Shown piece by piece: positions 15,709-22,538 of a stretch of DNA of 23,590 nucleotides. Numbering within the stretch: the stretch's first letter is position 1; each line of letters opens with the position of its first letter. The position numbers and the translations under genes are program-made. Source of the DNA: a virus; IMG/VR virus record IMGVR_UViG_3300006917_000156, positions 1 through 23,590 of that record; one strand, written 5' to 3'. Under the pieces are notes generated by a model. That model saw only the letters and a program-made list of their open reading frames with translations, had not been told where the DNA came from and did no database searches.

Positions 15709-16596
15709 CTACTTAGTCCAACTTGCGTGAGATTCCCTGAGAATCATCGGGGCGGTTGCTTTCCAATTAATCGTGTGGTGAATGCGTTTGTGGGTTGTGT
15801 GCATCATAGATACCTTGGCGCACCCCGGCGCAAGCATTACTGTGTAGAACGATTTGACATAGGTTCCATATTGTTTGTATGCGTCCGTGATTGCCCCTTC
15901 ATTAGACTGGGTTGCCTTTTGTGTCAGGGAAACCAGCGGGACAGTCAAAAACAAATCACCCCGATGGCCACCAATAACATAGGTGTTCACATCCTCGTTC
16001 TGCCTGCCTATGAATTTGAACGGGCGATCAGTCGAGCAAAAGAACGAATTCATGCATTTGCGTTTCAGGGTTGCAACAGTTGCAAAATCCCCGTCCGCTC
16101 CACCGATGAAATCTCCACCCTGAGAAAAGGCGATTGATTTTGCATTGGTGGACTTGAAGTACTCCAGCATGGAATTGAATATTTTGTCTAAGGTCGATTT
16201 GACCGTAAACACATTTTTTGGGTATTGGCCCCTCGAATCTGTCCTGAATTGAAATGCCGTGTAGTCATCGTCCAGTTGAACGAAATATTTGATTCCAAGG
16301 TCGGCTGCAATTTTGAATATTGCGTTTCTTGCGTGAGTCGTGGTTCGACGATCGTCGAAGTTGTCCATCTCGTCTGTCTGATCAGCAAACCATTTCTTAT
16401 CAAAAACGATGACGAATTCGCCATACTTTGTCTTGTATTCGCCTACAGTCTTGTCTTCATTGTCAACAATATAGTAAATGTCGCCGGTATACCCTGCCTG
16501 ACGAAGGGTAGTCTCTGTGTAGACCCTGTCTGGCCTACCGTGAGTCAAAATAAATACGGCGAAACGGTCCTGCTCATCTTTCGTTTTCTTCGGCAT
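15709..16596 (-). CDS. TET-associated-type glycosyltransferase (TAGT), DNA base modification
   Basis: This 295-aa protein fits the GT-A-like family first recognised beside TET/JBP oxygenases in phages. Residues 13-20 read AVFILTHG followed by RPDRVYTE; a DDD metal motif sits at 109-111 (FVQLDDDY); NEDVNTYVIGGHRGDLF at 200-216 carries Glu201-Asp202; and TQSNEGAITDAYKQYGTYVKSFY completes the pattern. Such enzymes add a sugar from a nucleotide-sugar donor to a hydroxymethylated base in phage DNA, protecting it from nucleases. The gene overlaps the end of the ParB-like gene by 23 bases. No TET oxygenase or hydroxymethylase gene lies in the window, so the source of the acceptor base is missing here. 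Family call good; exact base and sugar unknown. Confidence 0.8.
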   Translation of the reverse strand: MPKKTKDEQDRFAVFILTHGRPDRVYTETTLRQAGYTGDIYYIVDNEDKTVGEYKTKYGEFVIVFDKKWFADQTDEMDNFDDRRTTTHARNAIFKIAADLGIKYFVQLDDDYTAFQFRTDSRGQYPKNVFTVKSTLDKIFNSMLEYFKSTNAKSIAFSQGGDFIGGADGDFATVATLKRKCMNSFFCSTDRPFKFIGRQNEDVNTYVIGGHRGDLFLTVPLVSLTQKATQSNEGAITDAYKQYGTYVKSFYTVMLAPGCAKVSMMHTTHKRIHHTINWKATAPMILRESHASWTK

Positions 16597-17347
16597 AATA
16601 CTCTGAAAACTCCTTGCTCAATTTGACATATCCGTTTTCGATCGCTTTGTTCATGTCGATGATGACGAGTGCAGAATCCTCCATCAGCTTCTTCACATCT
16701 GCACTCGAATGAGCATAGAAATCTGCGATCATTTCATAATCAAAAACCAAATGCCTTTGAGCTGCTAATTTTAGAAAATCTTTGATCTCTTGAGGAGCAT
16801 CTGAAAACTCAATACTTGCAACAAGCTCGTTAGTTTTCGTCTTGTCTACTAAAAGAGATATGGCTGGCTTTTCGTTTTTTGGTTCATAGATCGGCGCTTC
16901 AATTTTTCTTGAATACATTTCCTCGTCTGATTTTCCATCGAGTATGCCAGCGTCCTCTGCGATTTGCGTCAGCATATTAGCGACAGCCTCATTGGATGTT
17001 TGAACATCCCGAAGAAGCGTGTCCAATGCAGCAGCATCCGATTCAGCCATTGCGCTGATCGGATCAAATGTGGCTAAAATCTTGTTTGATTCTGCCTCAT
17101 CTACATCCAGAATGAGGACGGGAATCTCGGCATCCACCATCGTTTCAGTTCGTAGGTGACCGTCTATCAGCATCAAGCCTTGAGGGGTCTCACGAGCAAG
17201 AACAGCCCCGGCAAATCCAATCTCAGCCAACAATCCCTTCAAAGCATCTTTTTGTGCTTTGGGATGCGTTCTCCAGTTTTTAGGGTTGGGAAGAATCTCG
17301 CTCGCTTTGACCCGTTTGAATTCCTTGATTCGGTCACGAATCTTCAT
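16574..17347 (-). CDS. ParB-like protein linked to DNA glycosyltransferase
   Basis: Residues 14-95 form a ParB/Srx-type domain: SEILPNPKNWRTHP, then a helix, AVLARET, LMLIDGHLRTE with the GHxR motif at 63-66, and PVLILDVDEAE. The C-terminal part (about 145-257) is a second domain with RHLVFDYEMIADFYAHSSADVKKLMEDSALVIID, which I recall from other phage proteins encoded beside such glycosyltransferases. ParB folds bind or hydrolyse nucleotides and bind DNA; the likely role is targeting or regulating base modification rather than partition, as no ParA is seen. It starts within an ATGA overlap with the previous gene (GAGG 7 bases ahead) and overlaps the glycosyltransferase gene. Confidence 0.82.
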   Translation of the reverse strand: MKIRDRIKEFKRVKASEILPNPKNWRTHPKAQKDALKGLLAEIGFAGAVLARETPQGLMLIDGHLRTETMVDAEIPVLILDVDEAESNKILATFDPISAMAESDAAALDTLLRDVQTSNEAVANMLTQIAEDAGILDGKSDEEMYSRKIEAPIYEPKNEKPAISLLVDKTKTNELVASIEFSDAPQEIKDFLKLAAQRHLVFDYEMIADFYAHSSADVKKLMEDSALVIIDMNKAIENGYVKLSKEFSEYYAEENER

Positions 17348-20323: not shown

Positions 20324-20854
20324 CATCGACCTTCGAATTTCATCCTTGGCCAAGTTAAATATCTGCCGAATGCGTTCTTTCTTCAATTTGTATCTTTTCT
20401 CCATTGTCTTAAATGATTCACCTTTCAAGTGTGAAATAACAATTCCTTTCCATCTGTTTCTTAATTTTGAAATGGACAGTTCCAATTCCTCCAATTCCTC
20501 TATTGTTTCAAACCCTTTGTCTTCTCGACCCAATTCATGCAATTCCCAATTGCCGTCATGTTCAAAGGATTTGAGCGTCAACGGGACAAATTTGATTCCA
20601 TATCCTCGCTTGATTGATTTGACATTCCAAAACAAATCAGAACGCTTGAAATGAAACGCTTGAGCAATGTAATTGGACAGCTTTCGATTGCCGTCAGGTT
20701 TCCATCTGGCAATAGCCATGCAAAGTGATTCGGAATATTCACCAACCAATTCGTCATATTCAAACTGGCTTGGTTGTTTTTTATTCCGAATAAACCAATG
20801 AACAAACTTGTAATTGTCTTCCACAAGTTTGCGTTTCTCATCACACAAAATCAT
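20306..20854 (-). CDS. RNA polymerase sigma-70 family factor (early region)
   Basis: This 182-aa protein reads like a short sigma factor. Residues 10-80 resemble region 2: EDNYKFVHWFIRNKK, YDELVGEYSESLCMAIARWKP, KLSNYIAQAFHFKRSDLFW. Residues 118-178 resemble region 4: a helix set and ESFKTMEKRYKLKKERIRQIFNLAKDEIRR, where 'KKERIRQI...A..EIRR' is the recognition helix pattern. It should recruit host RNA polymerase to phage promoters. It overlaps the zinc-finger gene by 4 bases (ATGA). The second sigma-like gene (9170-9676) is different in sequence, so the phage probably times transcription with two factors. The region 2 match is weaker here than in the late gene. Confidence 0.78.
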   Translation of the reverse strand: MILCDEKRKLVEDNYKFVHWFIRNKKQPSQFEYDELVGEYSESLCMAIARWKPDGNRKLSNYIAQAFHFKRSDLFWNVKSIKRGYGIKFVPLTLKSFEHDGNWELHELGREDKGFETIEELEELELSISKLRNRWKGIVISHLKGESFKTMEKRYKLKKERIRQIFNLAKDEIRRSMLQRAS

Positions 20855-21507
20855 TTCACTTTTCTCCCGATCTTCGCCATGATTTCCTGAAGCTTTTGCT
20901 GCACATTTTCGTTGGACGATGAAACTGATTTCATCTTTTCCAATTCCCTTTTGGCTTTGTGAACTTCATCCCGTGCAGCCAGTTGATCCCGATAGCCGGA
21001 ATTACGCCGAAGGTATTCGTTCAGATCCATTGGAAATTGTCCTTCACGAATAGGTTCTTTAGACCACCTCGCAGCAATTGCTGTTTTGGTCGCCTGTCCT
21101 TTTTCGCATGAACAACAAACAGCTTGGGTGTAATAAACTCCCATGTCGGTGTGCCAAATTCCGTCTTTGACATGATCCAAATGAGGCAAATCAACAACCC
21201 ACCCTGTCGATCCGCAAGTCGAACAGGAATGCGCCTCGAAATGCTTGCGCCTCAATTCCCGTGATTCACGGGCCGAAGCCAACAGTTCCTCATGAATTGC
21301 TTGCAAATGCTGCGGGGCAAATTGTGGCAAAACAGCCCGTCTTGCAACCCTGTAAACAGCGTCAGCAAGTTGCTCGTCATTCCAACCCTCAGCGGAAAAA
21401 AGACGAGTCCAAATTGCATAGGTTTCCCACCATCGTTCCGATGGGGTAGAAAACAATCTGGCATGAACTTCTTGCCACAACGGAACCATGTGCTGCAAAT
21501 TGCTCAT
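20851..21507 (-). CDS. Zinc-finger protein downstream of replication initiator
   Basis: This 218-aa protein has a helical N-terminus (about 10-90) with Trp-rich 'ERWWETYAIWTRLFSAEGWNDE' and 'LADAVYRVAR', and a DnaJ-like zinc site: CSTC with G (Cys95, Cys98) and CCSC (Cys131/132, Cys134). The C-terminus is helical and charged (AARDEVHKAKRELEKMKS). The gene sits directly after the replication initiator with ATGA coupling and a strong GGAGGT site 6 bases ahead. Position as in lambda O-P suggests a helicase loader, and 'helical domain with zinc site' would be compatible, but no AAA+ ATPase motif is present. I therefore leave the role open. Confidence 0.65.
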   Translation of the reverse strand: MSNLQHMVPLWQEVHARLFSTPSERWWETYAIWTRLFSAEGWNDEQLADAVYRVARRAVLPQFAPQHLQAIHEELLASARESRELRRKHFEAHSCSTCGSTGWVVDLPHLDHVKDGIWHTDMGVYYTQAVCCSCEKGQATKTAIAARWSKEPIREGQFPMDLNEYLRRNSGYRDQLAARDEVHKAKRELEKMKSVSSSNENVQQKLQEIMAKIGRKVK

Positions 21508-22463
21508 TTTGACACCTCCCCGTTAATGCCGTCTATTTTCGCATTAGACGAACGATCTTCTAAACTTGACTGATTCCCCAGCCCAAGGGTAGATCTCCCG
21601 CCATTCGTCAAATTTGACGGCAAAGAATCGAAGGTGGCGGGATTTGGTCGGATTGATCGGCGCATGGATGCCAAAATTGGATCGTCTTCGGGTATTTGCC
21701 CGACCCGGCCAATGATGTCCCGTTTTTCAGCTAAAACGCTCAGGGAATTTTGCGGTTGGGAAAAACCGTTTCGTGGTCGATCCGATGCCCGGGAAAGCCA
21801 GCTGGTCAAAAACCGGGGCATTCCACGGGCTGTTTTTTTCATCGTTCGAGCATTCAGCCACCCCAACGCTTTTCGACATTCGGCCAAAACATCTACCCCA
21901 GCATAAAGTGCTATCCATTCGTCCACCTGTGATTGCGTCAGAAACCACTTGGATGGATTCCCGTTGCAGGGATAGGTCAAAATCGGTGGCGTGTCCCCGT
22001 CAGGGGAACACGACACAACTGTTTTAATTTGGTTAGGTTTGGTTTGGTTAGGTTTGGTTAGGTTAGGAGGCATGGTGCTATGGCATGGTGCTATAGCAGG
22101 CTGCTCAAAGCACGATGCTACAGCAGGAGGTTGAATTGCAAACTTTTTATTGTGTTTTGCCATTGCGCCTTTGACAAAGCGTGGGCAATGTTCTGCCCAA
22201 TCGTGAATGACCAAACGATTCACGGGGCATGAATCCAACCAACCGCAATCAACCAAACTTTGAATCAATTCGTCAGGATTTCCGGCCCATTCAATTTCAG
22301 CTGCTATATCTTCGTTGCTCATTCGGCCTATTGCGCCGTCTTGGCAACTGGCTGATCCAATGTGCCAAATAGTTTCCAAAACGCCGACAACCGCATAATG
22401 GGGCACTCCCAATCTGCGTTTCAGCTTCTTGAATTTGCTTTTGGTAACAGCCGTGTGAATCAT
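21504..22463 (-). CDS. Replication initiator-like protein (winged-helix, DnaT/DnaD-like)
   Basis: I choose the ATG at 22463 (GGAGGG 5 bases ahead) since the recognisable domain begins there; an ATG at 22511 also has GGAGG 6 bases ahead and adds 16 residues. Residues 1-90 form a winged-helix-like domain (FKKLKRRLGVPHYAVVGVLETIWH, then LVDCGWLDSCPVNRLVIHDW) typical of phage replication organisers. A repeat-coded linker (TKPNQTKPNQIK) follows. The C-terminal part has LTQSQVDEWIALYAGVDVLAECRKALGWLNAR and GMPRFLTSWLSRA, a helical unit I know from DnaT-like replication proteins. It likely binds the origin repeats in its own gene and recruits the helicase. The next gene follows with ATGA. Confidence 0.75.
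   Translation of the reverse strand: MIHTAVTKSKFKKLKRRLGVPHYAVVGVLETIWHIGSASCQDGAIGRMSNEDIAAEIEWAGNPDELIQSLVDCGWLDSCPVNRLVIHDWAEHCPRFVKGAMAKHNKKFAIQPPAVASCFEQPAIAPCHSTMPPNLTKPNQTKPNQIKTVVSCSPDGDTPPILTYPCNGNPSKWFLTQSQVDEWIALYAGVDVLAECRKALGWLNARTMKKTARGMPRFLTSWLSRASDRPRNGFSQPQNSLSVLAEKRDIIGRVGQIPEDDPILASMRRSIRPNPATFDSLPSNLTNGGRSTLGLGNQSSLEDRSSNAKIDGINGEVSK
22028..22127. repeat. Tandem repeat cluster inside the initiator gene (candidate origin)
   Basis: Bases 22028-22067 are eight tandem 5-base units TTTGG or TTAGG (with TTTGGTTAGG at 22028, 22043 and 22053). Next, GGCATGGTGCTAT occurs twice head to tail (22069-22081 and 22082-22094). An 18-base unit at 22083-22100 recurs at 22110-22127 with 3 differences. 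The cluster is about 100 bases, flanked by an AT-rich stretch (about 22016-22030). Iterons within the initiator gene are the hallmark of a lambda-type origin. Confidence 0.6.
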
Positions 22464-22465
22464 TG

Positions 22466-22489
22466 ATCCCTCCGTAGAAATGGAGGAAT
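22466..22489 (-). promoter_or_regulatory. Hairpin that would hide the internal ribosome site of the initiator gene
   Basis: On the minus strand, ATTCCTCC (22482-22489) can pair with GGAGGGAT (22466-22473) around an 8-base loop, 7 Watson-Crick pairs and one G-U. The second arm is the GGAGGG ribosome site of the ATG at 22463. Folding would block that start and favour the upstream ATG at 22511, whose site lies outside. Confidence 0.45.
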
Positions 22490-22538
22490 CAAGCGGATAC
22501 AATTCTTGCATCGCTGGCCTCCAACTCAGGTCAGTTTT

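Follow-up and report, generated by a model that had tools for sequence, protein, structure and literature searches.

A few model phages (lambda, SPP1 and 80alpha) are known to carry their origin of replication within the initiator gene, but there is no general way of finding such origins. The question of such an origin is raised by a 23.6-kb viral contig (IMG/VR record IMGVR_UViG_3300006917_000156, positions 1 to 23,590; this whole stretch of 23,590 nucleotides is hereafter called the window), in which short repeats are crowded into 100 bases in the linker-coding part of a replication gene: do these repeats constitute an origin, or do they merely reflect the peptide that they encode?

The initiator gene and its neighbours

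The head, tail and early genes of the window lie on the minus strand. The features of the replication gene, its repeat block and the following gene, in coding order and with coordinates of the window, are as follows.

21504–22511, minus strand: initiator gene, 335 aa (open reading frame), with a winged-helix N-terminal domain, a disordered linker and a small C-terminal domain
22137–22463, minus strand: codons of the winged-helix DNA-binding domain (aa 17–125), kept in relatives, blocks mostly with pLDDT >80
22076–22125, minus strand: part 1, four dyad iterons TGC-N4/5-GCA spaced 13–14 bp, seen in the sequence
22116–22125, coding (minus) strand: dyad TGCTGTAGCA
22102–22112, coding (minus) strand: dyad TGCTTTGAGCA
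22089–22098, coding (minus) strand: dyad TGCTATAGCA
22076–22085, coding (minus) strand: dyad TGCCATAGCA
22070–22072, minus strand: final half-site TGC after the four dyads
22069–22094, plus strand: exact 13-base tandem repeat, GGCATGGTGCTAT twice, within the dyad array
22028–22067, minus strand: part 2, eight tandem CCWAA pentamers (TTTGG/TTAGG on the plus strand), encoding PNLTKPNQTKPNQ, kept in all seven close relatives that reach the linker
22022–22061, no strand: 40-mer with the lowest thermal stability in the gene by a nearest-neighbour scan, overlapping the pentamers
21780–21980, minus strand: codons of the C-terminal domain (model residues 162–228, AlphaFold2)
20851–21507, minus strand: next gene, 218 aa with two Cys pairs, overlapping the initiator stop

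In PHROG profile searches, residues 23–113 of the initiator match phrog_9474, 'replication initiation protein' (E=5.7e-15), and there is a weaker match to phrog_13246, 'replisome organizer' (E=0.0016). No Pfam match was obtained, and as its PHROG family is phrog_9474 and not the O-like phrog_678/345, the initiator does not belong to the O protein family. An AlphaFold2 model built with 20 relatives and starting at M17 shows a folded N-terminal domain of helices and strands, then a disordered segment, and lastly a small domain at the C terminus, the last being, by analogy with lambda O, a candidate for the partner- or loader-binding part. Fold matches of the N-terminal domain are weak and only of the MarR winged-helix type, and Foldseek and PDB sequence searches with the initiator gave no informative match. 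The next gene stays beside the initiator in relatives, including two contigs (L220 and L221) whose initiator is swapped; though placed where a helicase loader would sit, it has no family match and no helicase-loader match among Pfam and PHROG profiles. Elsewhere in the window, positions 16574–17347 encode a ParB-like protein of a type that occurs fused to, or next to, phage methyltransferases (phrog_620/498), followed by an ORF of unknown function at 15709–16596.

A two-part repeat block beyond chance

The repeat block (22028–22127) sits in the disordered-linker codons, between the two folded domains of the initiator as defined by the ORF and the AlphaFold2 model. On the coding strand it reads TGCTGTAGCA-TCG-TGCTTTGAGCA-GCC-TGCTATAGCA-CCA-TGCCATAGCA-CCA-TGC, with 3-bp spacers, and then CCTAACCTAACCAAACCTAACCAAACCAAACCTAACCAAA, which comprises the eight CCWAA units. 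A sequence-only reading had reported eight TTTGG/TTAGG pentamers, a 13-base tandem repeat and a near-repeated 18-base unit within 100 bases, and all of them are present at that place. However, the 18-base unit, real in itself, belongs to an imperfect 13-mer array (22076–22128) that is better described as four dyads on the coding strand. This refines the earlier picture, since the dyads rather than the pentamers are likely to be the initiator-binding iterons and the pentamers appear to be a separate element for opening or loading, an assignment made without binding data.

The repeats are real and far beyond chance, and neither part is expected from the encoded protein. A run of 3 CCWAA units was the most that 200 dinucleotide shuffles of the entire window produced, as against the 8 observed. 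When synonymous codons were re-drawn for the same 17 residues, only 4 of 200,000 trials yielded eight CCWAA units and only 1 of 200,000 yielded three TGCYRTAGCA dyads. Elsewhere in the window the plus strand has no CCWAA run of more than one unit, and the maximum on the coding strand is the array at 22028–22067 itself. The least stable 40-mer (22022–22061) is a candidate unwinding point, which is an inference from sequence alone. The pentamer tract is 60% A+T in the window; across 59 arrays of the wider family described below, mean GC equals that of the genes carrying them (0.59 vs 0.59), and therefore composition alone does not explain the arrays.

DNA is kept where protein is not

Eight IMG/VR contigs carry this initiator gene and seven extend to the linker. 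All seven keep the eight CCWAA units, despite variation of W between A and T and a Q-to-L change in the protein. Between the window and relative L093, 1 of 40 pentamer letters is changed, whereas the flanks differ at 27/150 (5') and 45/150 (3') positions (Fisher tests against the pentamers, 0.011 and 1e-4, respectively). The dyad zone shows 8 changes in 57 letters, divided into 1/24 in the half-sites and 7/33 in the spacers; for L088 the corresponding values are 0/24 and 2/33. With the more distant L107, whose N-domain is 49% identical, the repeat block is the only strong DNA match (70 nt, 93%, E=5e-25); it is followed, far behind, by a match of 28 nt in the N-domain (E=6e-5). Transfer by recombination explains this block match as well as purifying selection does, and the unit is DNA in either case.

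Thus, both parts are constrained as DNA, arranged as dyads and then pentamers after the winged-helix codons, with the linker peptide as a by-product. The proposal of DNA-level selection on the linker held in the L093 and L107 comparisons, and one case that would have refuted the candidate origin, relatives with the same protein and no repeats, was not encountered among the seven close relatives that reach the linker.

A CC register at 5/6 nt in the wider family

The wider family was sampled with an alignment restricted to the N-domain (pattern around IHDW), and two scans gave 80 viral and 27 genome loci, mostly of Planctomycetota, Acidobacteriota and relatives. The alignment seeds other than the window had originally been found via the repeat, but only letters of the N-domain entered the scan. 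Once near-duplicates had been removed, 83 initiator genes were left, and a CC chain was defined as at least five CC spaced by 5 or 6 nt within the 330 nt that follow the N-domain. Such a chain occurs on the coding strand in 59/83 genes and is lacking in 24/83, whereas its GG equivalent occurs in 3/83. Control spacings yielded 7 genes (steps of 3/4) and 1 gene (steps of 7/8), the winged-helix codons yielded none, and the next-best dinucleotide at 5/6-nt steps, CA, was found in 29 genes.

The units are diverse (CCAGAG, CCAAA, CCTAA, CCAAG, CCAGTG, CCTTTA, CCTAT, CCTAAG, CCATAG and others). Among the 59 arrays, 20 are pentameric, 19, 7 and 3 are hexameric in frames 0, 1 and 2, respectively, and 10 are mixed, so that all three reading frames are represented. 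The encoded linkers (PNLTK, PSQAK, PEPE, SQSQ, SHSR, TETE, SASA, LPLP, PIPI) have only disorder in common, and imperfect arrays retain CC while the loop letters vary. Because CC is forced by Pro, a synonymous null is uninformative for Pro-phase hexamers such as PEPE, and third-position and frame tests were used instead. In the Pro phase, the third base is A or T (CCW) in 215/240 codons inside arrays vs 417/1149 elsewhere in the genes, with an excess in 43 of 46 individual arrays (sign test 5e-10), even in GC-rich genes. Upstream of the chain, 7-mer direct and inverted repeat pairs average 34.9, as compared to 4.5 in the synonymous null sequences and 1.5 in the codons of the N-domain, and reach p<0.05 in 51/59 genes; hence dyad or direct repeats precede the chain in most. 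The dyad and iteron sequences themselves vary between phages (TGCTAAGCA, GTGCGCAC, TGTCCNGACA, GTTCCGGAAC and others), and no CCWAA run of more than two units was found elsewhere in these wider-family loci.

A second draw, made with the phrog_9474 profile on 788 bacterial genomes of two phyla, gave only a weak excess (CC chain in 11 of 35 ORFs vs GG in 6 of 35; in the subset with the HDW motif, 5/11 vs 1/11), and therefore the CC register marks part of the family and not all of it. When any DNA able to encode (PN[Q/L]TK)2 was sought, the 39 stretches obtained were all C-rich pentamers with Asn always as AAC, 23 being pure (CCWAA)6 and the rest near-variants such as CTAAA and CTTAA; some are noncoding. 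Of 37 ORFs with CCWAA arrays, 13 match phrog_9474, and others match further initiator families.

Two rival explanations bear on these results. Slippage could have generated microsatellites that are tolerated in a disordered linker without any DNA function; in its favour, the linkers are disordered, the arrays are of short period and polymorphic, and relatives without an array exist. It is nevertheless unlikely, as it fails to explain why CC recurs at 5/6 nt but not at 3/4 or 7/8 and solely on the coding strand, why CC is followed by W even where genes are GC-rich (43/46 arrays), why imperfect arrays retain CC with varied loop letters, why repeat-rich iteron zones adjoin, and why distant genes share 93% DNA identity at the repeat block alone. 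Alternatively, selection could act on the protein, for a Pro/Thr/Lys-rich linker with a 5-residue period. Whatever its frame, the pentamer does yield one and the same cycle of five residues (PNxTK), and the linkers are polar and disordered. However, unrelated peptides (PEPE, SQSQ, TETE, SASA, LPLP) share the CC register in all three frames and synonymous sites are constrained, which leaves this explanation with very little to recommend it.

Two further classes of array were observed in other viral contigs. CCAAA repeated five times directly before an ATG (for example CCAAACCAAACCAAAAAACAAAATG) forms a 5'-leader class (L017, L023, L042, L047, L058, L064, L069, L071, L074). Pure runs of 5–11 CCTAA (TTAGG) units outside long ORFs (L019, L021, L031, L060, L063) resemble arthropod telomeres and are possibly misbinned eukaryotic DNA.

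Other array units and a module swap

Contigs L220 and L221 resemble the window in gene neighbourhood, down to the next gene (54%) and the terminal part of the initiator. Their winged-helix domain is a different one, however, and their linker DNA carries GTAACGGTCAACCGTC followed by four AGACA units. AGACW arrays occur on viral contigs in several initiator families, including DnaD-like ones, and also at the start of methyltransferase-like ORFs. ORFs of the latter kind with an N-terminal AGACA array, encoding RQDKTRQDKT, are found in L225, L228, L229, L234, L236, L257 and L261; their starts may possibly have been over-extended across a leader array.

CACWA was tried as a composition-matched control (31 viral loci) and proved not to be clean, with 2 of 18 array-bearing ORFs matching initiator or primosomal families. 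Simple tallies of arrays across the collection therefore carry no evidential weight, and the genes selected by N-domain were used instead; for the same reason, the 5-nt period may be a more general feature than the letters that fill it. L266 and L282 encode initiator-like proteins whose NTTQHNTTQ linkers are made by CACAA pentamers. In L136, an ORF with regularly repeated VGVFKERHVLCS segments lies about 1.2 kb downstream of where the initiator gene ends and is possibly a translated direct-repeat or CRISPR-like array.

Annotated phages and known origins

Among annotated phages, palindromic repeats precede a CCAGAG chain in Microcystis phage Mae-JY24 and a CCTAA chain in Paenibacillus phage Harrison, and in Synechococcus phage Sc-Yong805-2, whose host is S. 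elongatus PCC 7942, palindromic repeats or iterons are followed by a CC chain of CCTAAG/CCTATG (array CCTAAGCCTATG). The annotated rep_origin of 80alpha contains palindromes and then short AT-rich ACTAATAAT repeats, Vibrio H20 has five 24-bp repeats, Shimadzu has an analogous array, AGAGTAGACAAGACT, and lambda has iterons (annotated in NC_001416) and an A-rich tract. CC chains were checked for in lambda, 80alpha, TP901-1 and Vibrio H20, and none was found.

The lambda plan places dimer-binding dyads beside an opening region within the initiator gene (PMC5043065), and lambdoid iterons have been studied by silent recoding in an origin plasmid assay (PMC7466680). As in lambda, the putative origin of the window lies in the linker-coding middle of the initiator gene, and four inverted repeats, the presumed iterons, are followed by an easily melted, candidate opening region of about 40 bp. 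Unlike lambda, its iterons are 10–11 bp dyads spaced 13–14 bp (18–19 bp in lambda), its second part is an ordered CC-phased pentamer array and not an A-rich tract, and its winged-helix family is phrog_9474 and not O-like. For 80alpha, the origin was assigned to ORF20 because trans-complementation failed and because ORF20–21 replicated autonomously (PMC5499656); oriL of SPP1, in gene 38 and inside the replisome-organizer gene, is described in the same paper. The putative origin of the window shares with that of 80alpha the location within a replisome-organizer gene and the order of palindromes and then short repeats, whereas the 80alpha repeats are of the ACTAATAAT type without CC phasing. The location first suggested by analogy with lambda-type phages thus corresponds to that of the origin in both the lambda O gene and 80alpha ORF20.

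Outside phages, winged-helix initiators of the plasmid Rep type (RK2 TrfA) bind iterons and also, in a strand-specific manner, the repeated 13-mers of the opened region (PMC4081077). The window resembles such iteron plasmids in combining a winged-helix initiator with presumed double-stranded iterons that adjoin one-strand repeats; in the plasmids strand-specific single-strand binding has been shown, and the RK2-type repeats are 13 nt long, in an AT-rich region of a plasmid origin. Likewise, DnaD recognises one strand of the Bacillus origin (PMC10201434), and the DnaA-trios and DnaD Recognition Element of oriC are short-period strand-specific elements by double-stranded initiator boxes, directing opening and helicase loading (PMC10201434, PMC10797057). 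Unlike the array of the window, these have a 3-nt register (trios) or TnnT pairs, are bound by DnaA or DnaD, and are chromosomal rather than within a phage initiator gene.

These comparisons bear on two more rivals. A two-layer G-quadruplex on the GG-phased template strand, or an i-motif on the C strand, might open or mark the origin, as each array has at least four GG tracts with loops of 3–4 nt, which in the window lie on the plus strand. However, short loops and GGG would be favoured, yet spacing 3/4 is rare (7/83) and 5/6 dominant (59/83), and the analogues AGACA (L220), AGAGTAGACAAGACT (Shimadzu) and ACTAATAAT (80alpha) lack GG phasing, which renders a quadruplex highly improbable. The dyads could also serve as an operator by which the initiator would repress either its own gene or some internal promoter, with the pentamers incidental; the weak resemblance of the winged-helix domain to MarR-type regulators speaks for it. 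Against it, the site lies well within the coding region, parts 1 and 2 co-occur in most of the sampled array-bearing genes, and the lambda and 80alpha parallels place origins at this very position, so that an operator, too, can be considered remote.

The block as a probable replication origin

The preferred reading is that the block is likely a phage replication origin embedded in the linker codons of its initiator, with lambda-like theta replication; origin function is inferred, as there are no replication data. It rests on repeats in excess of synonymous-codon chance, conservation at the DNA level (L093, L107), the CC chains of the N-domain-selected set, the upstream repeats, the codon test, the L220/L221 module swap, and the palindromes and AT-rich repeats of 80alpha. 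The earlier proposal of a candidate origin inside an initiator-like gene is to this extent supported by sequence comparison, without origin function having been shown. Against it stand the lack of GC-skew support, the 24/83 genes without a CC chain, the weak second draw, a next gene without a loader match, and the absence of CC chains from lambda, 80alpha, TP901-1 and Vibrio H20. GC skew, suggested earlier as a check, was dropped as an origin marker: the genes of the window are nearly all on one strand, and the cumulative-skew extremes of three related complete phages lie kilobases from the array.

Under the origin reading, three steps can be envisaged. Dimers of the initiator would bind the four TGC-N4/5-GCA dyads, 13–14 bp apart, which is inferred from dyad symmetry and the winged-helix domain in the absence of binding data. 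The initiator-dyad complex would then open the adjoining 40 bp, where the gene is least stable, again an inference. Finally, by analogy with plasmid Rep and DnaD, the initiator or a loader may hold one strand in the 5/6-nt register (units CCWAA in the window; CCAGAG, CCAAG, CCATAG and the like in relatives), so that the helicase is loaded with a defined polarity. By the same analogy, the 5/6-nt array is inferred to be a single-strand element specific to the initiator or its loader. Both the start of replication at the block and the identity of the protein that reads the array remain inferred.

Implications

The literature searched does not mention arrays of this kind in the initiator genes of phages; as it was open-access only, this is weak evidence of novelty. 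A bolder reading can be formulated, for which the present evidence falls a little short: many tailed-phage initiator genes would carry an unnamed strand-specific origin element with a 5/6-nt register, mostly CCW-phased (AGACW or CACAA in other families), 3' of dyad iterons and read single-stranded by the initiator or loader to set helicase polarity, with the 'low-complexity' PNQTK, VDKTR, PEPEPE and SQSQSQ linkers as by-products.

If the two-part signature holds, the origins of many uncultured phages would become readable from their sequences, and the low-complexity linkers of phage replication proteins would be explained. The 5/6-nt register would then be a testable code for DNA opening by a winged-helix initiator and helicase loading on one strand, comparable to the DnaA-trios and the DnaD element. 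One DNA sequence would thus serve two constraints, in a linker free enough that the DNA dictates the peptide.
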